Source: Flavobacteriales bacterium
Lineage (GTDB): Bacteria > Bacteroidota > Bacteroidia > Flavobacteriales > Flavobacteriaceae
Assembly: GCA_024643405.1 (NCBI GenBank)
Contig: JAHENA010000003.1
Coordinates: forward strand, 30,249-94,248
Reading direction: 5' to 3'
DNA: 64,000 nucleotides
The notes under the pieces are model-generated. The model was not told the origin of the DNA, did not search any database, and saw nothing but the letters and a program-made list of their open reading frames with translations. This document shows positions 48,224-61,541 of this stretch, in pieces; within the stretch, counting starts at the first letter, position 1, and each line of letters begins with the position of its first letter. The position numbers were made by a program, and so were the translations under genes.

Positions 48224-48243
48224 CTTAAGATTTGCTTAAAAAA
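48224..48243 (-). promoter_or_regulatory. CTTAA-N6-CTTAA box overlapping the 3' end of the sensor-kinase gene
   Basis: CTTAAGATTTGCTTAAAAAA, third copy of the same sequence; encodes the final FLSKS* of the kinase. Confidence 0.4.
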
Positions 48244-49610
48244 TTAATAGTAAAAGTAGTTCCCTTATTAGGTTTGCTTTCTATGTTAATAATTGCTTTA
48301 ATAGCTTCTGCTGATTTTAGGGCGATGGAAAGCCCTAAGCCATTTCCTGAAATGTGTTTGTGCTCCAATGCTTCAGATCTAAAGAAATGATTAAAAACAT
48401 TGGGAATATCTTCGTTTTTTATGCCAATACCTTCATCTTTTATTTTACAAAGAATGCTTTTATCAATAGACATTAATTGGATGAGAATAGATTTGTTTTG
48501 GGTTGAATATTTAATGGCATTGTTAATAATATTATCTAGGATGAGGTTGGCATGGTATTTTGGCACCAAAGTTTTTTCTTCTGTTTCTACTTGTAATTCA
48601 ACTTTTAAATTTTTTGAAAGAATATCCTTATCATATCTCACCAATATTTCATTTATAAGAGTTGGTAATGAAATGAGGGTGTTATTTAATATCGTATTGG
48701 TAGAATCTAATCTGGCCAACAATAATAATTGTTCTGTGGTTTTTGTCATTCTATCAATTTCTGAAAGGCTATATTTTATTTTATTTTCATATTCATTTAC
48801 GTCTCTCGGTTTTCTTATTAATACTTCTAATGTGCCTCTTAACGAAGCAAGTGGTGTACGCAACTCATGAGAAGCGTCTGATGTAAATTGACGCTCTCTT
48901 TCTATCGCATTTTCAATGCGTTGTAAAAGTTGATTGATGCCAGATGATAAATCATATAATTCATCTTTATATACTGGTAGTTCAACGCGTTCATTTAAAT
49001 TATTTTTAGTAATTCTATTGGTGGTTTGTGTAATATTTTTAACTGGAATGATACTTCTTCCAGCAAGATATCTGGAAACAAAATAAAGTCCGCAAAGCAT
49101 TGTTAAATAAGATATTATGAGCGTGTTTCTTAATTTAAATAGAACCATCAAGGATGGTTCTAGGGTTATGGCTGCCAACATATAACCTTTAGTTACACCA
49201 TTGCTTTCAATAGGCTTTTGAATTTGCCGAATTGCCTGATCTTTTAAATTGGTATTAAAATGAGTGCCGTATTCATTGATGTCTTTAAATGGTAAAACAT
49301 CCCTTTTTAGGTTTGGTGATTTATCCATCACACTGCCATTAATATCAATAATCTGAATGAAAATAGGATTCATTTGAATCTCTTTATGTTCAACTTCTTC
49401 CCATTCTGCCTTATTAATAAATTGAATAGCGTCGCCAATTATTTTTATTTCACCAGAATGTTTTGATGCTTCAAAATTTAAACTATTATCTAAATTTTGA
49501 TACATGGTTTCTTGAACAACGAAAAAAACAACCCCAAATATGATAGCCATAATCACAGCAGTAGCTATCATATAATGCAAAGCAATTCTATTTTGAAAAC
49601 TTAATTTCAT
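48225..49610 (-). CDS. Two-component sensor histidine kinase (heavy-metal CusS-like)
   Basis: Two TMs, HAMP, ERERQFTSDASHELRTPLASLRGTLEVL H-box, IKDEGIGIKNEDIPNVFNHFFRSE, GNGLGLSIALKSAEA. Confidence 0.94.
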   Translation of the reverse strand: MKLSFQNRIALHYMIATAVIMAIIFGVVFFVVQETMYQNLDNSLNFEASKHSGEIKIIGDAIQFINKAEWEEVEHKEIQMNPIFIQIIDINGSVMDKSPNLKRDVLPFKDINEYGTHFNTNLKDQAIRQIQKPIESNGVTKGYMLAAITLEPSLMVLFKLRNTLIISYLTMLCGLYFVSRYLAGRSIIPVKNITQTTNRITKNNLNERVELPVYKDELYDLSSGINQLLQRIENAIERERQFTSDASHELRTPLASLRGTLEVLIRKPRDVNEYENKIKYSLSEIDRMTKTTEQLLLLARLDSTNTILNNTLISLPTLINEILVRYDKDILSKNLKVELQVETEEKTLVPKYHANLILDNIINNAIKYSTQNKSILIQLMSIDKSILCKIKDEGIGIKNEDIPNVFNHFFRSEALEHKHISGNGLGLSIALKSAEAIKAIINIESKPNKGTTFTINFLSKS

Positions 49611-50275
49611 AGTTCATCGGCGATATATCCAATTCCTCTTATGGTTTGAATAAAATCTTCGTGTGGATTTAACTTCAGTTTTTTTCTTAAGGCATTAATG
49701 TATACATCTATAACACCCGTATTGTAATCAAAATGTATATCCCATACATTTTGAATAATACTCGTTCTGGTGCATACAACTCCTTTATTTTTCAATAAAT
49801 ATTCTAATAAAGCGAACTCTTTTTGAGTTAGCATAATTTCTTCATCTGCATTAAATACTTTATGAGTTTTAGTATTTAACAAGATATTTCCAATTGAAAA
49901 TGTGGAATGCTCTACAGATTTAGACCGTAATTGTACTTTAATTCGTTCTAAGAGCTCATCAAAGTGAAAAGGCTTTTTAATATAATCATTAGCCCCAGAT
50001 TGTAGTCCGAAAATAGTTTCATCTACCGTATCTTTTGCAGTTAAAAAAATTATAGGAGTATTATTAAATGATTTTCTAAATTCATGACATATTTCAATAC
50101 CGCTTAAGCCGGGGAGCATCCAATCTAATAGTAACAAATCATAAATACCAGACAAAGCAAGCTCTAAGCCTGTCTTTCCATTATCAGCAACGTCTACAAT
50201 AAAAGATTCTTCTTCTAATCCTTGTTTAAGAAAATTAGAAATGCCAGTTTCATCTTCTACAACTAATATTTTCAT
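49607..50275 (-). CDS. OmpR-family response regulator (CusR-like)
   Basis: MKILVVEDETGISNFLKQGL, LLLDWMLPGLSG, winged-helix end VIDVYINALRKKLKLNPHEDFIQTIRGIGYIA. Start at 50275 preferred over 50302. Confidence 0.94.
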   Translation of the reverse strand: MKILVVEDETGISNFLKQGLEEESFIVDVADNGKTGLELALSGIYDLLLLDWMLPGLSGIEICHEFRKSFNNTPIIFLTAKDTVDETIFGLQSGANDYIKKPFHFDELLERIKVQLRSKSVEHSTFSIGNILLNTKTHKVFNADEEIMLTQKEFALLEYLLKNKGVVCTRTSIIQNVWDIHFDYNTGVIDVYINALRKKLKLNPHEDFIQTIRGIGYIADEL

Positions 50276-50317
50276 GATGCAAAAATTATTTTTTAATTTC
50301 AAAAAACAATTAAATGT

Positions 50318-50425: not shown

Positions 50426-50686
50426 TTAATTAAATTCTGATGAATCTAAATCTTGAAGTTCATTAAGTTGTTTCAATAAATCAAATGTTTTCTTGGCTTC
50501 TACTTCATCAACTACACTAATAGCAGCACCAACGTGTACCATGACATAGTCATTAACATTTGCTTCTGGTACAAGTGTTAAACTCACTTCTTTAATAACA
50601 CCGTCAAAAGACACTCTGCCAGTTCTAAAGGTTTCATCTAACTGAGCTGTTATTTCTATTAATTTTCCTGGAATTGAAAGACACAT
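50426..50686 (-). CDS. hypC: Hydrogenase maturation chaperone HypC
   Basis: MCLSIPGKLIEI...VSLTLVPEANVNDYVMVHVGAAISVVDEVEAKKTFDLLKQL. Confidence 0.95.
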   Translation of the reverse strand: MCLSIPGKLIEITAQLDETFRTGRVSFDGVIKEVSLTLVPEANVNDYVMVHVGAAISVVDEVEAKKTFDLLKQLNELQDLDSSEFN

Positions 50687-50698
50687 AATTTTTTTGAA

Positions 50699-51520
50699 TT
50701 AATTTTCTTTAAGCCACTGATACCAAGCTTCCATTCCTTCACCAGTAGTAGCAGAAACCTCAAAAAATTTCAATTTAGAATTTACTTGTAAGGCATAAGA
50801 CTTTAACTTTTTAATATCAATATTTAAATAGGGTAACAAATCTATTTTATTTATGATGCAAATATCCGAGGTATGAAACATATCAGGATATTTAATAGGT
50901 TTGTCTTCTCCTTCAGTGGTGCTGATTATAACCACACGTTTATTTTCACCTAGATGGAACATAGATGGACACACCAGGTTCCCCACATTTTCAATCATTA
51001 AAATGGAGTGGTCTTTTATGTTTAATTTTTTTACGGCCTCATAAACCATATCACTTTCTAAATGACATCCTTTGCCCGTATTGATTTGAATAACAGGTAT
51101 GCCTAAAGCATTAATTCTATTGGCATCGTTAAGTGTTTGTTGATCTCCTTCAATCACATAAAATATTTTTTCATTTTTTAAGTCGGTTAAAGTTCTTTCT
51201 AAAATAGAGGTTTTACCTGAGCCTGGAGAACTCACTAAATTTAAAGCGAAAATGTTTTTAGCTTCAAAATAGCCTTTATTTCTTGACGCCATCACATCAT
51301 TATGTTGCAAAATATCTTGTTCTAAATCTATCACCGTTTTATGGTGATGGTCATAATTATGGCTATGGGGATGGTCATGGTCATGGTGATGATGATCATG
51401 TGTATGCTCATGACTATGAGAATGCCCGTCATGATGATGATGTCCGTGTGCTTCTACCTCACTAGGATTTTGAATAATCACACCATTTTTTTCTGATCCG
51501 CAACCGCAAGTTCCACACAT
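50699..51520 (-). CDS. hypB: Hydrogenase nickel incorporation GTPase HypB with His-rich region
   Basis: MCGTCGCGSEK N-terminus, HGHHHHDGHSHSHEHTHDHHHHDHDHPHSHNYDHHH, NLVSSPGSGKTSILERTL, ICIINKIDLLPYL. Confidence 0.97.
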   Translation of the reverse strand: MCGTCGCGSEKNGVIIQNPSEVEAHGHHHHDGHSHSHEHTHDHHHHDHDHPHSHNYDHHHKTVIDLEQDILQHNDVMASRNKGYFEAKNIFALNLVSSPGSGKTSILERTLTDLKNEKIFYVIEGDQQTLNDANRINALGIPVIQINTGKGCHLESDMVYEAVKKLNIKDHSILMIENVGNLVCPSMFHLGENKRVVIISTTEGEDKPIKYPDMFHTSDICIINKIDLLPYLNIDIKKLKSYALQVNSKLKFFEVSATTGEGMEAWYQWLKEN

Positions 51521-51576: not shown

Positions 51577-51918
51577 TTAAGACACCTCTAAATATTTTAC
51601 CCTCAATTCTTTGCCTTTAATAATGCTTTTTAAGAAGCTATTGCATTTAGGACATGAATCATAAAAATATTTAACTTTAAAAATATGGTGACAATCACCA
51701 CATTTTGCCTCTCCTTCAATAATATTTATTCTTTTTTCAGCATGTTCCAATACCGTGTCTTTAACAGCCGAAGGCCAAACAAAATCTAAAGAATCAAATT
51801 CAATTCCTGCCAGTGTGCCTATTTCAAGTTCAATGAATTCAACTTTATTTTTATTGGCTTTTTTTGTTTCTTTTTCAGCAATATCAACTATACCCAACGC
51901 TATTGATAATTCATGCAT
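51577..51918 (-). CDS. hypA: Hydrogenase nickel insertion protein HypA
   Basis: MHELSIALGIVDIAEKE; zinc site CGDCHHIFKVKYFYDSCPKC. Confidence 0.96.
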   Translation of the reverse strand: MHELSIALGIVDIAEKETKKANKNKVEFIELEIGTLAGIEFDSLDFVWPSAVKDTVLEHAEKRINIIEGEAKCGDCHHIFKVKYFYDSCPKCNSFLKSIIKGKELRVKYLEVS

Positions 51919-51990
51919 GTAGTTAATATTTTTGAAAGTTTAACCTATTGATATATAGAACAATAATAAATATTTACAAGAATTAATAAT

Positions 51991-52004
51991 ATGACAAATG
52001 TCAT
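51991..52004. promoter_or_regulatory. Candidate Crp/Fnr-family-like dyad in the hypA/hydrogenase divergent region
   Basis: ATGACA-AA-TGTCAT inverted repeat (TGAC-N4-GTCA core). Confidence 0.45.
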
Positions 52005-52014
52005 GTTTTTTCTT

Positions 52015-52043
52015 AGAATGATTTTCTAGCTTTAAATCATTCT
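52015..52043. repeat. 10-bp perfect inverted repeat upstream of the hydrogenase small subunit
   Basis: AGAATGATTT-tctagcttt-AAATCATTCT. Confidence 0.7.
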
Positions 52044-52089
52044 TTTTAAAATATGTAATATCTCATTTTTTTTAATCTAAATTTTCATT

Positions 52090-53214
52090 ATGGCTAAAAA
52101 CAACGAATTAAGAGAAACTTATTATGAGAGCATAATAAAACAGGGCTATAGTAGAAGAGATTTCATGAAGTTTGCCACCTATATTGCTGCCTATATGGGA
52201 TTGGAAAACTCTATGGTTGGTCAAGTGGCAAAGTCTCTTGAAACTACACACAGGGTACCAGTAATTTGGGAACATTTCCAAGAATGTACGTGTTGCAGCG
52301 AATCTTTTATTCGTTCTGACCATCCTATAGTGGCAGATATTATTCTTGATAAAATTTCATTAGATTATACGTTAACCTTAATGGCAGCTTCAGGACATCA
52401 AGCAGAAGCGGCTAAGCAGGCCACCATGGAAAAATACAAAGGTGAGTATATTCTTTGTGTTGAGGGGTCTGTACCAATGGGTGATGATGGTAATTACTGT
52501 TGTATTGGTGGAAGATCAGCTAAAGATTTATTAATTGAATCAGCTGCAGGAGCCAAGGCTATAATTGCTTGGGGTAGTTGTGCATCAAACGGATGTGTTC
52601 AGGCGGCAAAACCAAATCCTACAAACGCAACACCAATTCATAAAATTATAAAAAACAAACCAATTATAAGAGTTCCGGGTTGTCCTCCAATTGGGGAAGT
52701 TATGGCTGGTGTCATTGTACATTTAGTCACTTTTGGAAGATTGCCAGAATTGGATCGATTAGGAAGACCAAAAGCATTCTACGCAAAACGAGTTCATGAT
52801 AGTTGTTATAGAAGACCATATTATGATGCTGGATTGTTTGCTCAAACCTTTGATGACAAAAATGCTAAAGATGGTTATTGTTTATATAAGTTGGGTTGTA
52901 AAGGGCCTATGACCTATAATTCATGTGGAACCATAAAATGGAATAATGGCGTGAGTTATCCAATTCAATCCGGACATGGATGTATAGGATGTAGTGAAGA
53001 AAACTTCTGGGATAACGGACCATTCTATGAAAGATTGACTAAAGTTCCAGGACTTCATGAAGAAGGACTGGCCGATGATATTGGAAAAGTTGGAGCCGGT
53101 ATTTTAGCAGGTGGCTTAGCGGTCCATGCGATTGCAGCTAACATTTCCAAAAGAAAAGAATTAACAAGCCGAATAAATCGAGGCATATCAAACGAAAAAA
53201 ATATTGACTCTTAA
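52090..53214 (+). CDS. Uptake [NiFe]-hydrogenase small subunit, Tat-exported, six-cysteine (O2-tolerant group 1 type)
   Basis: Tat motif SRRDFMKF; ECTCCSESFIRS, GSCASNGC, RVPGCPP; GCKGPMTYNSCGTIKWNNGVSYPIQSGHGCIGC; C-terminal hydrophobic anchor VGAGILAGGLAVHAIAANI. Confidence 0.96.
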   Translation: MAKNNELRETYYESIIKQGYSRRDFMKFATYIAAYMGLENSMVGQVAKSLETTHRVPVIWEHFQECTCCSESFIRSDHPIVADIILDKISLDYTLTLMAASGHQAEAAKQATMEKYKGEYILCVEGSVPMGDDGNYCCIGGRSAKDLLIESAAGAKAIIAWGSCASNGCVQAAKPNPTNATPIHKIIKNKPIIRVPGCPPIGEVMAGVIVHLVTFGRLPELDRLGRPKAFYAKRVHDSCYRRPYYDAGLFAQTFDDKNAKDGYCLYKLGCKGPMTYNSCGTIKWNNGVSYPIQSGHGCIGCSEENFWDNGPFYERLTKVPGLHEEGLADDIGKVGAGILAGGLAVHAIAANISKRKELTSRINRGISNEKNIDS

Positions 53215-53225
53215 AAATTAGAATT

Positions 53226-54962
53226 ATGGCAGATAGAATAGTAGTTGATCCTGTTACCAGAATTGAGGGTCATTTAAGAATAGAAGCAGAAATTAAAGAT
53301 GGAATCATAGTAGATGCCTATAGCTCCAGTACAATGGTAAGAGGTATTGAAGAAATTGTTAAAGGAAGAGATCCTAGAGATGTCTGGGCTTTTGTACAAA
53401 GAACATGTGGCGTATGTACAACAGTGCATGCATTAACATCAGTAAGAGCAGTTGAAGATGCTTTAGGTATAGCGATTCCACCAAATGCCGAAATGGTAAG
53501 AAATATTATGGAAGGTGCATTATACATGCATGACCATACCATTCACTTTTATCATTTACACGCCTTAGACTGGGTAGATGTAGTGAATGCTTTAAATGCA
53601 GATCCTGTTAAAACTTCTGAATTAGCACAAAGTATTTCGAATTGGCCAAAAAGTTCACCAGGTTATTTTTCTGATATTAAAAAACGCATCACTAAATTTG
53701 TTGAAAGTGGTCAATTAGGAATTTTTGCCAATGGCTATTGGGGTCATCCTCAGATGAAATTGCCTGCTGAGGTAAATTTATTGGCAGTAGCTCATTATTT
53801 GGAAGCTCTGGAATGGCAAAAAGAAATTGTAAAAGTCCATACCATTTTTGGAGGAAAAAATCCACATCCAAATTATTTGGTTGGGGGAATGGCATGTGCT
53901 ATAAATACTGAAAATCCTGGAGGAATTAATGCAGAGCGCTTAGCCATGGTTAAATCGCTTCTTGATGAAGGAAAACGATTTATTGAACAAGTTTATATTC
54001 CAGACTTATTGGCAATTGCATCCTTCTATAAAGATTGGGGAGCCATTGGCAAGGGATTTGGAAATTATATGTCTTATGGTGATTTCCCAGTTAATGGCTA
54101 TGCAGATCAATCTAATTTTAAATTTCCACAAGGAGTTATTTTAAACCGAGATTTATCTAAGGTATTAGATGTTAATCATAGAAGTAGTGACGAAATTGAA
54201 GAGTTTGTCAATAATTCCTGGTATGATAATTATGCCGAGGGTAAAGAAACCGGTAGACATCCATGGGAAGGAGAAACCAATATTAAATATTCAGGTCCAA
54301 AACCACCGTACGAACATTTGAATGTTGAAGAAAAGTACAGTTTTGTAAAAACACCACGATGGAAAGGGATGCCTATGGAAGTGGGTCCTTTAGCGAGGCT
54401 TTTAGTAGGTTATGGAAGAGGTAATAAGGAAATACAAGAGGCTGTCAATGCTGCTTTAGCGCATTTAGATGTTCCGGTTGATGCCTTATTCTCAACTTTA
54501 GGTAGAACTGCTGCCAGAGGAATAGAAACGCAATTGGTAGCCAATTGGACCATGGAATTTTATGATACGTTAATACGTAATATCAAAAATGGCGATCAAA
54601 GAATGGCTAACACTGAAAATTGGGAACCCTCCACTTGGCCATCAGAAGCAAAAGGAGTAGGCTATATGGAAGCTCCTAGAGGAGCTCTAGCACATTGGAT
54701 TAAAATTAAAGATGGAAAGACTGAGAACTATCAACAAGTGGTTCCAACAACCTGGAATGCATCTCCAAGAGATCCTAAAGGTGAACGTTCTGCTTATGAG
54801 TCTACGTTAATTGGCACGCCAGTGGCAGATCCAGAATTACCGCTCGAAATCATTCGCACTATTCATTCGTTTGATCCATGCTTGGCCTGTGCCGTGCATT
54901 TATATGATGAGCATGGTAATCATATCTCCAGAGTTCAACATACCGGTAGTTGTGAAATTTAG
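53226..54962 (+). CDS. Uptake [NiFe]-hydrogenase large subunit
   Basis: L1 motif RGIEEIVKGRDPRDVWAFVQRTCGVCTTVHALTS; L2 motif SFDPCLACAVH with a 20-residue C-terminal tail. Confidence 0.97.
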   Translation: MADRIVVDPVTRIEGHLRIEAEIKDGIIVDAYSSSTMVRGIEEIVKGRDPRDVWAFVQRTCGVCTTVHALTSVRAVEDALGIAIPPNAEMVRNIMEGALYMHDHTIHFYHLHALDWVDVVNALNADPVKTSELAQSISNWPKSSPGYFSDIKKRITKFVESGQLGIFANGYWGHPQMKLPAEVNLLAVAHYLEALEWQKEIVKVHTIFGGKNPHPNYLVGGMACAINTENPGGINAERLAMVKSLLDEGKRFIEQVYIPDLLAIASFYKDWGAIGKGFGNYMSYGDFPVNGYADQSNFKFPQGVILNRDLSKVLDVNHRSSDEIEEFVNNSWYDNYAEGKETGRHPWEGETNIKYSGPKPPYEHLNVEEKYSFVKTPRWKGMPMEVGPLARLLVGYGRGNKEIQEAVNAALAHLDVPVDALFSTLGRTAARGIETQLVANWTMEFYDTLIRNIKNGDQRMANTENWEPSTWPSEAKGVGYMEAPRGALAHWIKIKDGKTENYQQVVPTTWNASPRDPKGERSAYESTLIGTPVADPELPLEIIRTIHSFDPCLACAVHLYDEHGNHISRVQHTGSCEI

Positions 54963-54977
54963 CTAAATAAAAAGATC

Positions 54978-55730
54978 ATGAAAAAAATAACAAATTTTAA
55001 ACGTGTATACGTCTGGGAATTACCAGTCAGGATCTTTCATTGGTTAAATGTTTTGGCTTTATTTGTCTTGGTTGTTACAGGTTTTATAATTGCTAATCCA
55101 CCAGCTATATTATCCAGCGCAGAAGCAACAAACTTACATACTTTTGGCTTTGTTAGGTTTTTACATTTTACGGCGGCTTACATTTTCTTATTCGTTTTAA
55201 TATTGAGAGTTTATTGGTCATTTATGGGTAATAGATTTGCAAGTTGGAGAGCGTTTTGGCCGTTTACCAAAAAGAACTGGAATAATTTTTGGCATGTGAT
55301 GAAAATTGATATCATGCTCATGAATGAGAAGGAAGAGGATGTGTCTAAAATTAGTATTGGACATAACAGTGTAGCCACACTTTCATATTTAGTCATGTTT
55401 GTTTTAGCTCTTGTTCAAATAGCAACAGGTTTTGCTTTATATGGAGATATGGCCTCCTGGTGGTTACCTAAAATGTTTGTATGGGTCATTCCACTTTTTG
55501 GTGGAGACTTTATAGTTAGGAGCATTCATCATACTGCCATGTGGTTTTTTATTTTTTTTGCTATGGTTCATGTTTATTTGGTATTTTATCATGATTGGCT
55601 CGAGGGAAGAGGAGAAGTGTCTTCTATATTTGGAGGCTATAAATTTGTTTCTGATGAACGTTTAAAGCATGCCCATAATGAAGATGAAGTAGAAATTAAA
55701 GATGAAAAAGGAATTGTAGCCACAAAATAA
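54978..55730 (+). CDS. Ni/Fe-hydrogenase b-type cytochrome subunit
   Basis: VYVWELPVRIFHWLNVLALFVLVVTGF, multipass with His pairs, SIHHTAMWFFIFFAMVHVYLVFYHDWLEGRGEVSSIFGGYKFV. Confidence 0.95.
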   Translation: MKKITNFKRVYVWELPVRIFHWLNVLALFVLVVTGFIIANPPAILSSAEATNLHTFGFVRFLHFTAAYIFLFVLILRVYWSFMGNRFASWRAFWPFTKKNWNNFWHVMKIDIMLMNEKEEDVSKISIGHNSVATLSYLVMFVLALVQIATGFALYGDMASWWLPKMFVWVIPLFGGDFIVRSIHHTAMWFFIFFAMVHVYLVFYHDWLEGRGEVSSIFGGYKFVSDERLKHAHNEDEVEIKDEKGIVATK

Positions 55731-55899: not shown

Positions 55900-56433
55900 A
55901 TGAAAATCCCAGAAAGAACACCAGTTGCAATAAGTAGCGATTCCTATTTTTTTGAAAAGGATAAATCCAATAGTATTTTGGTGATGGGTGTTGGTAATTA
56001 TTTAATGGGAGATGAAGGGATTGGTGTGCATATTATACAGGAAATGGCGAAGCAGGAACTTCCAGAATATATAGATATTCTTGATGGTGGAACAGGTGGG
56101 TTTTTACTACTCAGCTGTTTTCAGGTATATCCTACTATTATTTTTGTTGATGCTACCATGGACGGTAAACCTGCAGGTACTATTTCCTTAATTCGTCCCA
56201 AATTTGCATCCGATTTTCCTTCAGCTTTGAGTGTTCATGACGTGGGCTTAAAAGACATGGTAGAGGCGGTTTATTTGATGGATAAAGTCCCAGACATACA
56301 TTTATTTACGGTTTCAATAGAAGAAATGAATCCCATGACCATAGAATTAAATTCAAAAGTAGAAGCTGTAATCCCTGAATTAATTCATAGAATTTATGAA
56401 CATGCAAAAAATTTGCATCTTCAGACAAAATAA
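55900..56433 (+). CDS. Hydrogenase maturation endopeptidase (HyaD/HoxM-like)
   Basis: ILVMGVGNYLMGDEGIGVHIIQEM, IDILDGGTGGFLLL, TIIFVDATMDGKPAG, LSVHDVGLKDMVEAVYLM. Confidence 0.93.
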   Translation: MKIPERTPVAISSDSYFFEKDKSNSILVMGVGNYLMGDEGIGVHIIQEMAKQELPEYIDILDGGTGGFLLLSCFQVYPTIIFVDATMDGKPAGTISLIRPKFASDFPSALSVHDVGLKDMVEAVYLMDKVPDIHLFTVSIEEMNPMTIELNSKVEAVIPELIHRIYEHAKNLHLQTK

Positions 56434-56456: not shown

Positions 56457-58724
56457 ATGCAGAAAACCTATAAAATTCTTATCTCAGGACAAGTTCAAGG
56501 TGTAGGTTTTAGGCCATATGTGTATAATTTAGCTAAGGATTTTTTATTAAAAGGTTCTGTTTCCAATAATGAAAATGGGGTTATTATTTTAGTTCAGGGT
56601 TTAGATCAATCCGTTCAAGATTTTTATGATAGGTTAATTCATTTTCCGCCACAGGTTTCCAAAATCAGGGAGTGTTCAATCACAGAGATTCAGTTTATTT
56701 TATTTAATGAATTTAATATAGTTCCTTCAACAAAGGAAGGTCAGCTTAATGTAATATTGACACCAGATTTTGCCCTGTGTGATGATTGTAAAGACGATAT
56801 CAAAGATGTAGAGAATAGACGTTTTTCTTATCCTTTTACCACATGCGTAAATTGTGGACCAAGGTGGGCCATCACTGAAACTTTTCCTTTTGAAAGGAAT
56901 CATACCAGTATTGATGAATTTCCCATGTGTGAAACCTGTCAAGAAGAATTTGAAAATCCTTCGAATAGACGATTTCATTCACAAACCAATACCTGCTCAA
57001 CTTGTGGAATTAATTTAGATTTAATAAATCATCTGGGCCAACATATTCAAGTACAAAAGGATGAATTATTTAAGAAAGTTGCTTTTCTTTTAGAAGAAGG
57101 AAGTATCATTGCCATAAAAAACACCAGCGGTTTTTTGTTATGCTGTAATGCGGAAAATGAAAGCGCAGTTCAAAAACTTAGAGACAAAAAACAACGACCC
57201 AAAAAGCCATTCGCTGTTTTATATCCTTCCATCCATCATTTAAAGCATGAATTAGTAATAAGTGCTGAACAAGAAAAAAGTCTCCAATCTGTTGAAAGGC
57301 CTATTAATATTATTAACGCAATTGGTTATAAAGGTAAGATTCATTTAAGCAAAGTCGCACCAGGATTAAATCAAATAGGGGTAATGTTACCATATTCTGG
57401 CATATTGCAATTATTGGCTAATGAATTAAAATTTCCTATTGTGGCTACCAGTGGTAATATTCATGGCTCACCAATTATTAGTGATTTTGATGAGGCCTTT
57501 TTAAAACTAAGTCATGTGGCAGACTATTTCTTATACCACAATTTAAAAATTATTCACGCACAGGATGATTCTGTCGTAAAGTTCAGTAAAAAGTTTAGTA
57601 AAGAAGTGTTATTCCGCAGATCCAGAGGTTATGCGCCTAATTTGTTTAACATTTCTATAAAAGCAGATAAAAAAATTATGGCATTAGGGGCGCATTTAAA
57701 AAGTACTATTGCTTATGTGCCTAATGCATATGTTTATTTGAGTCAGTATCTAGGAAATCTGGATAATTATGATGTTTATCAGCGTTTTACAGATACTGCT
57801 TTAAATTTAATGGAAGTATTTGAACAGACGCCAGAAGTTCTTTTAGTTGATGCCCATTCAGGCTATCAGAGCACGATGTATGGTAAGGAATTGTCTGAAG
57901 AACTAATGATTCCATTATATAAAATTCAACATCATAAAGCACATTTTGCCTCAGTATTAGAAGAGCATCATTTATTTGGTTCCAAGGAACCTGTTTTGGG
58001 AGTTATTTGGGATGGTACAGGTTATGGTGATGATGGGCACATTTGGGGTGGAGAATTTTTTGAATACCATTCAAATAAAATAGAAAGGGTTTCCCATTTT
58101 GACTATTTTGATTGGCTTGCAGGAGATAAAATGTCGAAAGAACCTAGATTATCTTTCCTCTCTTTATCAAGATCTGAAATGAAAAATATTATAGAAAAGA
58201 AGTTTGAAACACATGAATTTGAGATTTATGAAAAATTGAAACTTAGAAATAAATTAAAAACGTCATCTGTTGGTAGATTATTTGATGCGGTTGCTTCCTT
58301 ATTAGGCATTTGTGACTTAAATACTTATGAAGGTGAAGCCGCTATTTTGATGGAAAATTATTTAGAGGATTATAATTTGGAGCATTGTAATCTCTATAGT
58401 TCAGTTTCAGATAATGGCCTAATTCCTACTAAAGAGTTATTTCATAATCTGTATTTAGATTTTAAAACGGGTAATTCAAAAGAAATGGTAATTGCTAATT
58501 TCTTTTACACTTTAGCATCATTAGTTTTTCAAATGGCTAAAAAAAACCATTATAAGCATATTGCTTTTAGTGGGGGCGTTTTTCAAAATACTACACTCAT
58601 AGATATGATTAAAGAAATAGGAGAAAAGGAATATAAATTATATCTTAACATAAACTTAGCTCCCAATGATGAAAATATTTCTTTTGGACAAATTATGTAC
58701 CATCTAAATTGCACAAATGAATGA
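56457..58724 (+). CDS. hypF: Carbamoyltransferase HypF
   Basis: Acylphosphatase domain GQVQGVGFRPYVYNLA; zinc fingers CDDCKDDI, CVNCGPRW, CETCQEEF, CSTCGI; Kae1-like end GVIWDGTGYGDDGHIWGGEF. Confidence 0.97.
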   Translation: MQKTYKILISGQVQGVGFRPYVYNLAKDFLLKGSVSNNENGVIILVQGLDQSVQDFYDRLIHFPPQVSKIRECSITEIQFILFNEFNIVPSTKEGQLNVILTPDFALCDDCKDDIKDVENRRFSYPFTTCVNCGPRWAITETFPFERNHTSIDEFPMCETCQEEFENPSNRRFHSQTNTCSTCGINLDLINHLGQHIQVQKDELFKKVAFLLEEGSIIAIKNTSGFLLCCNAENESAVQKLRDKKQRPKKPFAVLYPSIHHLKHELVISAEQEKSLQSVERPINIINAIGYKGKIHLSKVAPGLNQIGVMLPYSGILQLLANELKFPIVATSGNIHGSPIISDFDEAFLKLSHVADYFLYHNLKIIHAQDDSVVKFSKKFSKEVLFRRSRGYAPNLFNISIKADKKIMALGAHLKSTIAYVPNAYVYLSQYLGNLDNYDVYQRFTDTALNLMEVFEQTPEVLLVDAHSGYQSTMYGKELSEELMIPLYKIQHHKAHFASVLEEHHLFGSKEPVLGVIWDGTGYGDDGHIWGGEFFEYHSNKIERVSHFDYFDWLAGDKMSKEPRLSFLSLSRSEMKNIIEKKFETHEFEIYEKLKLRNKLKTSSVGRLFDAVASLLGICDLNTYEGEAAILMENYLEDYNLEHCNLYSSVSDNGLIPTKELFHNLYLDFKTGNSKEMVIANFFYTLASLVFQMAKKNHYKHIAFSGGVFQNTTLIDMIKEIGEKEYKLYLNINLAPNDENISFGQIMYHLNCTNE

Positions 58725-59815
58725 AGTATTTAACAGAATATAGAAATTTAGAGGCAACCAAAAATTATTTAGAGCTTATCCATAAAGTAGCTACCAAGAC
58801 ATGGAAAATCATGGAGATATGTGGCGGACAAACGCATGGATTGGTAAAAAATGGCATTCTAGAATTGTTGCCGGAATCTGTTCAGATGATTCATGGACCA
58901 GGTTGCCCTGTTTGTGTAACACCATTAAATTTAATTGATAAGGCTATTGAACTTTTAGAAAATGGTGTTATTGTATGTTCTTTTGGTGATATGATTAGAG
59001 TTCCAGGAAGCAAAAAAAGTTTATTGGAAGCCAAGTCAAATGGTGGAGATTTAAGAATTTTATATTCACCTATTGAGGCAGTAAAAATAGCAAAGAATAA
59101 TCCTGATAAAGAAGTCGTGTTTTTTGCAGTAGGATTTGAAACAACCGCACCGGCTAATGCACTCTCTGTTTTACATGCTCAAAAAGAAGGGCTTAAAAAC
59201 TACTCTATTTTGGTCTCACATGTATTGGTTCCTCCTGCAATGGAAGCTATTTTGGATGATAAGTTCTGTAAGATCAATGCCTTTTTAGGGGCTGGGCATG
59301 TTTGTGCTATTATGGGTTATAGAGAATATTTTCCGCTTGCTGAAAAATATAAAATACCTATAATAATAACAGGTTTTGAGCCACTTGATTTAGTACAGGG
59401 TATCTACATGGCGGTGAGTCAATTGGAAAAGGGAATTTATGAAGTTGAAAATCAATATTCCCGAGTGGTCAAGGAAGAAGGTAACATAGCGGCCTTAAAA
59501 GTTATTAATAAGGTATTTGAAGTAGGAGCTAGAGAATGGCGGGGCATAGGGGAGATTCCCAATAGTGGCTATGTTTTGACTCATGAATTCAAAAGTTTTG
59601 ATGCTGAAAAAAAATTTGGTATCAGTCATTTAAAAGTGCCAGAAAATCCTAATTGCATTGCAGGAGCTATATTAAAAGGGATAAAAAAGCCGCATCAATG
59701 CGACCAATTCGGTAAAAAATGTACACCTTCTAACCCATTAGGAGCGCCAATGGTTTCTTCAGAAGGAGCCTGTGCGGCATATTATCATTTTTCAAGTAAT
59801 TTAATGTCAGAATAA
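58721..59815 (+). CDS. hypD: Hydrogenase maturation factor HypD
   Basis: EICGGQTHGLVKNGILELLPESVQMIHGPGCPVCVTP, VGFETTAPANALSVL, GAGHVCAIMGYREYFPLAEKYKIPIIITGFEPLD; ATGA overlap with hypF. Confidence 0.97.
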   Translation: MKYLTEYRNLEATKNYLELIHKVATKTWKIMEICGGQTHGLVKNGILELLPESVQMIHGPGCPVCVTPLNLIDKAIELLENGVIVCSFGDMIRVPGSKKSLLEAKSNGGDLRILYSPIEAVKIAKNNPDKEVVFFAVGFETTAPANALSVLHAQKEGLKNYSILVSHVLVPPAMEAILDDKFCKINAFLGAGHVCAIMGYREYFPLAEKYKIPIIITGFEPLDLVQGIYMAVSQLEKGIYEVENQYSRVVKEEGNIAALKVINKVFEVGAREWRGIGEIPNSGYVLTHEFKSFDAEKKFGISHLKVPENPNCIAGAILKGIKKPHQCDQFGKKCTPSNPLGAPMVSSEGACAAYYHFSSNLMSE

Positions 59816-59817
59816 TA

Positions 59818-60843
59818 ATGGAAAAGGAAGAATTAGGATATGAAACTATACAACTTGGCCATGGAAGTGGAGGATTAATGACCCGTGACTTATTGGATAA
59901 AATTATTTTCAAATCATTCAGCAACCCCTATTTAGATCAAAAACACGATGGCTCTGTCATAAATATTAACGGTAGAATGGCCATTTCAACAGATAGTTTC
60001 GTGGTTTCTCCCATTTTTTTTAAAGGGGGTAATATTGGTGAATTAGCTGTTAACGGAACTGTAAATGATGTGGCCATGTGCGGTGCAATACCAAAATATT
60101 TATCATTAGCATTCATTGTTGAAGAAGGATTAAAAGTTGAGGATTTTATTACTATTGTTAATTCCATAAAAAAAGCAGCTGATGAAAGTGGCGTACAAAT
60201 AATAACAGGGGATACCAAGGTAGTAGAAAGAGGTAAAGGCGACAAAATATTTATTAATACCACAGGTTTTGGTGAAGTAAATTCTCACGCTAAAATTGCT
60301 TCTGAACACATTAAAAATGGTGATAAAATTCTTCTTAATGGTTTTGTCGCGCAACATGGTATGGCAATAATGTCACAAAGAGAAGGTTTAGAATTTGAAT
60401 CAACTATAGTTAGTGATACAACCAACCTCAATTTTTTAGTGAATGATTTAATTAACAAATTTGGAGATAAAATTCATCTTTTTAGAGATCCAACAAGAGG
60501 TGGTGTAGCCAGTGTTTTATCTGAAATTTCACAAGACATTAAAAAAGGGGTTCTTATTTATGAAGATAAGATTCCATTAGAGAAACAAGTTGCTGCGGCT
60601 TGTGAAATTTTAGGGCTTGACCCATTGTATGTTGCGAATGAAGGCGTCTTTATGGTAATTGTTGATGCTTCTATTCAAAATGAAGTATTGTTATTTATGA
60701 AAAATGATCCAAAGGGCAAAAATGCTGCCTATATTGGAGAAATAACGCAAGAACATCCTGGTAAAGTAGTCATGAAAAGTGCCATTGGTGGTAAGAGAAT
60801 TGTAAGTCCTTTAATAGGTGAACAACTGCCTCGTATTTGTTAA
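59818..60843 (+). CDS. hypE: Hydrogenase maturation protein HypE
   Basis: QLGHGSGGLMTRDLLDKIIF, STDSFVVSPIFFKGGNIGELAVNGTVNDVAMCGA, FRDPTRGGVASVLSEI, C-terminal PRIC. Confidence 0.97.
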   Translation: MEKEELGYETIQLGHGSGGLMTRDLLDKIIFKSFSNPYLDQKHDGSVININGRMAISTDSFVVSPIFFKGGNIGELAVNGTVNDVAMCGAIPKYLSLAFIVEEGLKVEDFITIVNSIKKAADESGVQIITGDTKVVERGKGDKIFINTTGFGEVNSHAKIASEHIKNGDKILLNGFVAQHGMAIMSQREGLEFESTIVSDTTNLNFLVNDLINKFGDKIHLFRDPTRGGVASVLSEISQDIKKGVLIYEDKIPLEKQVAAACEILGLDPLYVANEGVFMVIVDASIQNEVLLFMKNDPKGKNAAYIGEITQEHPGKVVMKSAIGGKRIVSPLIGEQLPRIC

Positions 60844-61541
60844 GAAAAAAGCCAATATAAACCTATAATTATTGCAAAAAGACCACCTGAAAACCTAATT
60901 CCTTTGAATAAGGTGTCATTGTGCTCATTTTTACTAAATGAGGAAATTCTGCCAATAAGTATAGCAAATGAGGTCATTGCTAAAACAATTCCGCAACTAA
61001 AGCCAACTAAATAGGAAATTGAATCTATTTGACTTTTAAAACTGGCCACGGGTATAAAAAGCAAGAAATGTGAAATACCAGCTAAGCCATGTAAAAAGCC
61101 TATTGATAAAGAGGCAAAACCGCTTTGTTTTAATTGATGATTATGTGAATGGTGGTGAGAAGTTTCATGTTGATGAGCATGCTCATGTTTATGAATAGCC
61201 ACAGTATTATTACTATGCACATGTAAATGTTTGTGCTTTTTATCTTCTTTGAATATTTTGTAAAAAGACCAAGCTCCAATCAATAAAAGTACAATGCCAA
61301 CTAACTGCTCGCTATATCCGGAAATTGAATCAACAGGGATGAGTTCTCGGAATATTAAAAATAAAATTCCAATAGACAACATGCCCAATAAATGACCAAT
61401 CCCCCATAATAACCCTATTTTCCAGGCTTTTTTTTTGGATTCTATGGCAAATGGAATGACAGCAGCTAAATGATCTGGCCCAGTAATAACATGTAAAATA
61501 GACGCAATTAATGCGGCAATAAAGGGAAAAGAATCACTCAT
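60840..61541 (-). CDS. Putative nickel permease (UreH/NicO-like) with His-rich cytosolic loop
   Basis: ASILHVITGPDHLAAVIPFAIESKKKAWKIGLLWGIGHLLGML; HKHLHVHSNNTVAIHKHEHAHQHETSHHHSHNH loop; tail-to-tail with hypE. Confidence 0.8.
   Translation of the reverse strand: MSDSFPFIAALIASILHVITGPDHLAAVIPFAIESKKKAWKIGLLWGIGHLLGMLSIGILFLIFRELIPVDSISGYSEQLVGIVLLLIGAWSFYKIFKEDKKHKHLHVHSNNTVAIHKHEHAHQHETSHHHSHNHQLKQSGFASLSIGFLHGLAGISHFLLFIPVASFKSQIDSISYLVGFSCGIVLAMTSFAILIGRISSFSKNEHNDTLFKGIRFSGGLFAIIIGLYWLFS

Follow-up and report, generated by a model that had tools for sequence, protein, structure and literature searches.

How does a marine flavobacterium control the oxidation of H2? We analyzed a stretch of 64,000 nucleotides (the window) that includes a divergent pair of genes, hypA on the minus strand and the gene for the small subunit of a [NiFe] hydrogenase on the plus strand. 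Between them lies an inverted repeat, ATGACAAATGTCAT, at 51991..52004 (centre 51997.5, no strand assigned), which the initial annotation had located correctly. The initial annotation's distances from the dyad to the two genes (about 80 nt and about 90 nt) were slightly high: 72 nt separate it from the start codon of hypA (at 51918, minus strand), and 85 nt separate it from the ATG of the small subunit (at 52090). Based on its sequence and conservation, we predict that the dyad is an operator of the Crp/Fnr type, with the consensus ATGAY-N4-RTCAT.

On the minus strand, hypA (51577..51918) is expected to encode a nickel metallochaperone; it matches NCBIfam TIGR00100 with 84.2 bits, slightly under the cutoff of 88.1 bits. 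Downstream of hypA are hypB (50699..51520; NCBIfam TIGR00073, 273.7 bits) and an ORF that we named hypC-like from its sequence (50426..50686), both on the minus strand. On the plus strand are the small subunit (52090..53214; NCBIfam TIGR00391, 483.8 bits), the large subunit (53226..54962; NCBIfam PRK10170, 716 bits, under its equivalog cutoff), the b-type cytochrome of the hydrogenase (54978..55730; NCBIfam TIGR02125, 168 bits), and a hydrogenase maturation protease (55900..56433; NCBIfam TIGR00072, 105.6 bits). The next three ORFs on this strand, at 56457-58724, 58721-59815, and 59818-60843, were named hypF-, hypD-, and hypE-like from their sequences, and given their spacing, they (56457..60843) are probably part of the hydrogenase transcription unit. 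Farther out, the hypC-like ORF is followed by a two-component pair of the heavy-metal type (48225-50302), and beyond the hypE-like ORF, 60840-61541 weakly matches a nickel/cobalt efflux transporter. Judging from these neighbors, metal control of the hydrogenase cluster is possible.

In proteobacteria, uptake hydrogenases and their hyp genes are governed by HoxA/NtrC with sigma54, together with an H2 sensor. The initial annotation had reported no sigma54-like GG-N10-GC element nearby. We agree: neither GG-N10-GC nor a relaxed -24/-12 element is present on either strand of 51901-52100, and the comparative data point to a regulator of the Crp/Fnr type instead. No RNA family from Rfam matches at the dyad.

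Could the dyad be an inverted repeat that arose by chance and has no function? Within the window, it is statistically ordinary. TGAC-N4-GTCA (as TGACNNNNGTCA) occurs once, when dinucleotide shuffling predicts 0.38 occurrences. At least one is present in 33 of 100 shuffles, so by sequence alone the core is no rarer than chance. The significance of the dyad comes from its conservation, its fixed spacing, and its recurrence across the genome, not from its count in the window. We retrieved 80 orthologous small-subunit loci and could delimit the intergenic region between hypA and the hydrogenase in 73 of them, or 74 with the window. Of these 74 regions, 43 contain [AC]TGAY-N4-RTCA[TG]. Aligning orthologous promoters had been proposed as a check, with absent conservation counting against the dyad; once near-identical regions are removed, the dyad is kept in 35 of 57 regions, as compared to 0.1 for dinucleotide shuffles. 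(In Flavobacterium johnsoniae, for example, the hydrogenase promoter, L080, carries CTGACAATTATCAC.) Across orthologues, position 5 is C or T and position 10 is G or A, and the symmetry of the dyad is retained; the central four bases vary, yet they stay rich in A/T. Judging from the alignment, half-sites that covary around a variable, A/T-rich centre are the signature of a protein-binding dyad. (TGA and TCA are invariant in all 32 promoters that we aligned, but these rows were selected by that very pattern.) Conservation across the family and fixed spacing, both far beyond what shuffles give, rule out a chance repeat, and we assign this explanation almost no probability.

The spacing to the putative promoters is the second line of evidence. 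Activators of the Crp/Fnr type act from position -41.5 at class II promoters. We aligned 32 non-redundant promoters, including the one in the window, by their dyads, and in all 32, there is a TA on each side at a distance of exactly 22 nt. The box at this offset begins with TAnnTTTA or a near match on the right side, and with TAnnATTG, TAnnTTTA, or a near match on the left side (read on the other strand). Promoters for sigmaA of Bacteroidetes have TAnnTTTG at -12 to -5 (PMC9723704). In the window, the predicted -7 boxes that resemble TAnnTTTG are TAGCTTTA at 52027..52034 (plus strand, 22 nt to the right of the dyad) for the hydrogenase and TATTATTG at 51961..51968 (minus strand, 22 nt to the left) for hypA. 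If these boxes are placed at -12 to -5, then transcription is predicted to start at about 52039 (plus) and at about 51956 (minus), and the centre of the dyad is at -41.5 for both. Two-sided promoters are not limited to the hydrogenase: other dyads also have a -7 box 22 nt away on both sides (G023:C2:256994-257067, G014:C27:1703-1776, G048:C11:90514-90587, and G000:C126:12207-12280).

Instead of being a class II site, the dyad might be the operator of a repressor, or it might be the -35 element of a promoter like those of E. coli. A sigma70-like match, ATGACA-N17-TAGAAT, does begin on the dyad, but TAGAAT is not conserved among the orthologues, while TAnnTTTA at offset 22 is, so we rejected this promoter. 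As for repression, some relatives have just 8-10 nt between the box upstream of fnr and the -7-like box that comes next, which would suit a repressor; the fixed -41.5 geometry on both sides of the hydrogenase dyad, in 32 of 32 promoters, fits activation. We consider both of these alternatives to be very unlikely.

If the dyad is the site of a regulator of respiration, it should recur near respiratory genes, and the initial annotation had suggested scanning the genome for this. ATGAY-N4-RTCAT occurs 59 times in the host genome, as compared to 21 times for the reversed pattern. A composite unit, with the dyad, a gap of 22 nt, and TAnnTTTR, has 47 matches in the host genome and 0 for the reversed-pattern control; across 60 genomes (including the host), there are 780 matches and 24 control matches. 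Among 111 dyads with A/T cores from the host, TAnnTTTR is at offset 22 in 35 cases and at any other offset (0-49) in at most 2, but these stretches were picked around matches to the dyad or to the composite, so the 35 are enriched by selection; the composite counts are unselected.

The composite unit does precede respiratory and other low-oxygen genes. Genes downstream of it include ccoS, hemN, hemA, PEP carboxykinase (PEPCK), and pyruvate phosphate dikinase (PPDK); 2-oxoacid:ferredoxin oxidoreductases of the indolepyruvate type and of the KorA type; a type III sulfide:quinone reductase; a multiheme cytochrome and DsrO-like iron-sulfur proteins; a ScdA_N/hemerythrin (RIC-like) protein, an iron-sulfur P-loop carrier, citrate synthase, and chain 3 of NADH dehydrogenase; and ferredoxin, ribonucleotide reductase, and universal stress proteins. 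Two other genes, which we named ResB-like and PFOR-like from their sequences, have the dyad but lack a perfect -7 box. As judged from these predicted sites, the targets of the composite unit are a low-oxygen regulon of the FNR type. In F. psychrophilum, genes for the cbb3 oxidase and heme are induced when oxygen is limiting (PMC9723704), in keeping with a regulon that responds to oxygen. Separately, the sulfide:quinone reductase (L116:3130-4359) is a full-length match to a selenoprotein subtype in NCBIfam and has no in-frame stop.

Which protein would bind the dyad? The host genome encodes four proteins with Crp/Fnr-type helix-turn-helix domains: an FNR homologue of 225 amino acids, two paralogous response regulators with receiver, cNMP-binding, and Crp-type helix-turn-helix domains (REC-Crp), and a protein in a 215-amino-acid frame that has a different recognition helix. 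The gene for the FNR homologue (G000:C60:38667-39341) adjoins a gene for a CcoI-like P-type ATPase, and a box sits between the two. Among 28 aligned orthologues of fnr, 26 have a matching box 43-84 nt upstream. The FNR homologue thus has both a predicted low-oxygen regulon with respiratory and heme genes and a predicted site at its own promoter.

The FNR homologue is a divergent one. It scores 86.2 against NCBI's model for Fnr, below the cutoff of 228. The oxygen-labile [4Fe-4S] cluster of FNR is ligated by C20, C23, C29, and C122. Among structurally known proteins that share its cysteines, the closest to the FNR homologue is FNR (5e44/5cvr family). C4, C7, and C106 of the FNR homologue align with three cluster cysteines (C4 and C7 with two N-terminal ones, C106 with C122), and it has no equivalent of C29. 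(The cysteine correspondence of the E. coli row in our alignment was confirmed independently against the FNR sequences in PDB.) In the flavobacterial FNR homologues (L148:1501-2175 and its orthologues L149-L177), C4, C7, C53, and C106 are invariant, and C53 is not a cluster ligand in FNR, so the ligation of the cluster may be rearranged. The recognition helix of E. coli FNR is E-x-x-S-R. In all of the aligned orthologues of the FNR homologue it is T-E-S-x-I-R, that is, E-x-x-I-R and not E-x-x-S-R. The altered helix (I for S) and the altered box (ATGAY) appear to be mutually consistent.

A REC-Crp protein might be the main reader of the box instead, in which case hydrogenase expression would track a phosphorylation signal. 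The recognition helices of the REC-Crp proteins (TETLIR and SETFVR) are similar to that of the FNR homologue (TESTIR). The composite unit is also found in genomes that have REC-Crp only (24 matches in G013, 15 in G033, and 7 in G028), which is why we think that this box, or a similar one, is probably recognized by REC-Crp proteins too. Two metagenome-assembled genomes (L025 and L042), which might be incomplete, have the hydrogenase dyad and REC-Crp with no FNR detected. On the other side, the hydrogenase dyad is kept in at least seven genomes that have FNR but no full-length REC-Crp (L017, L024, L032, L033, L045, L055, and L082), and these include isolates of Allomuricauda zhangzhouensis, Muriicola jejuensis, and Robertkochia. 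Furthermore, the sites near the host's REC-Crp genes and on contig C126, at genes for universal stress proteins, CBS proteins, and DnaJ, are mostly TTGAT-N4-ATCAT (22 nt from TAnnTTTR), unlike the ATGAC dyad at the hydrogenase. (The REC-Crp neighborhoods with sites are on G000:C49, C123, and C126; L117, L139, L140, L187, L188, and L192.) The composite unit has a median of 12 matches in the 39 genomes with an FNR orthologue and 0-3 matches in the 15 genomes with neither FNR nor REC-Crp (P ~ 3e-8, Mann-Whitney test, uncorrected for kinship). Taken together, the comparison of genomes favors FNR over REC-Crp as the binder at the hydrogenase promoter, and we consider it improbable that REC-Crp is the main reader. 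Across the family, ATGAY is preferred to TTGAY in composite sites. We also considered the first base of the box as a way to tell FNR sites from REC-Crp sites, and rejected it: it is suggestive in the host only, and G013, which has REC-Crp only, also prefers A (11 vs. 1).

FNR and REC-Crp might also both act on the box, which would integrate oxygen and phosphorelay signals. The host genome and its genus have both proteins, with similar helices and overlapping site consensuses, but many genomes with the hydrogenase have FNR only. We view joint control as unlikely, if less so than control primarily by REC-Crp.

How does this system compare to known ones? The FNR box of proteobacteria has the consensus TTGAT-N4-ATCAA (PMC1274295). 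The flavobacterial system is like proteobacterial FNR and its class II promoters in having a 14-bp dyad with TGA half-site cores, a 4-bp spacer, and a predicted position of -41.5; it also shares targets (cbb3 assembly, hemN, and hemA) and a box upstream of the regulator's gene. It differs in the outer bases of the box, which are A/T (ATGAY...RTCAT) instead of T/A, in the Bacteroidetes -7 box through which the promoter would be read, and in the recognition helix, in which the S of E. coli FNR is replaced by I. The TGAC-N4-GTCA core is shared with the TTGAC-N4-GTCAA boxes of FixK, DNR, and HcpR. However, position 5 can be C or T here, and a pattern search found TTGAY-N4-RTCAA (the canonical FNR/FixK box) in none of the 74 orthologous promoters; it found no CRP box in them either. 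So, the initial annotation's proposal of a Crp/Fnr-type dyad is supported, but the box is an ATGAY variant that differs from the FixK/FNR box in its outer bases, and among the Crp/Fnr/FixK regulators that it proposed, the best candidate is the FNR-type protein encoded next to ccoI, not FixK.

Another Crp/Fnr-type dyad from the same phylum is the box of HcpR2, GTAAC-N4-GTTAC, in Bacteroides and others (PMC1274295). Its core is TAAC instead of TGAY. Among the 74 hydrogenase promoters, it is present in four, all from Lutibacter (L011, L018, L022, and L037). Boxes of this type are also found separately in the host near some FNR-type boxes (L119, upstream of hemA; L118; and L116), which suggests that another regulator of the Crp/Fnr type controls these genes too. 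In Lutibacter, the ATGAY dyad is missing from its usual position in the hydrogenase promoters even though an FNR orthologue is present (L011, L018, L022, L029, L036, L037, L043, L044, L048, L050, L063, L073, and L076). These promoters are about 70 nt longer. At about -135 to -105 relative to the small subunit, they have in common another conserved block, CTTATTTTAAAACATTCTAAATTA, and then TTGTA..TTAG, which is conserved as well. A different regulator probably acts on them.

Overall, we think it likely, though by no means certain, that an FNR-type activator of the Crp/Fnr superfamily uses the dyad as its operator, with two divergent class II promoters under low-oxygen control. The comparative data thus support the initial proposal of a shared Crp/Fnr-type site for H2 oxidation and nickel insertion, without sigma54. 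We infer that a protein binds the dyad, that it activates rather than represses, that oxygen is the signal, and that the main binder here is the FNR homologue, not one of the REC-Crp paralogues. At low oxygen, a dimer of the FNR-type protein would bind the dyad and recruit the housekeeping RNA polymerase of Bacteroidetes, which would read a TAnnTTTG-like -7 box on each side of the dyad, at a distance of 22 nt. Rightward transcription would yield the hydrogenase structural genes, and leftward transcription would yield hypAB(C). One box would couple the hydrogenase and nickel insertion to the cbb3 oxidase and to genes for heme, ferredoxin oxidoreductases, and sulfide oxidation.

More speculatively, a single dimer might be the only class II site for the two mirror-placed promoters. 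If one dimer serves both, then two RNA polymerases would compete for it, and the box would act as a divider that sets the ratio of transcription between the hydrogenase and nickel insertion. The controller would be a variant of FNR with rearranged cysteines (C4, C7, C53, and C106) and with its own DNA code (ATGAY-N4-RTCAT) across the Flavobacteriaceae. This fuller model is tentative, and we would not bet on all of it.

In the open-access literature, our search found no earlier description of an ATGAY-N4-RTCAT box in Flavobacteriaceae, which is weak evidence of absence, and no description of the control of flavobacterial uptake hydrogenases. The class of system is well known; the features that appear to be new are the variant sequence of the box, the exact mirror placement of the promoters, and the connection to H2 oxidation. 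With the signature of a dyad, 22 nt, and TAnnTTTR, the low-oxygen regulon can be predicted from flavobacterial genomes with little noise. Uptake hydrogenases are present in many marine flavobacteria, and a low-oxygen box predicts that H2 oxidation is part of a micro-oxic program. This would fit the peak in the abundance and expression of group 1d hydrogenase genes in hypoxic seawater (PMC10305171), if the present enzyme is of this group. If our reading of the promoter is correct, then the cell probably turns on H2 oxidation along with the genes for low-oxygen respiration.
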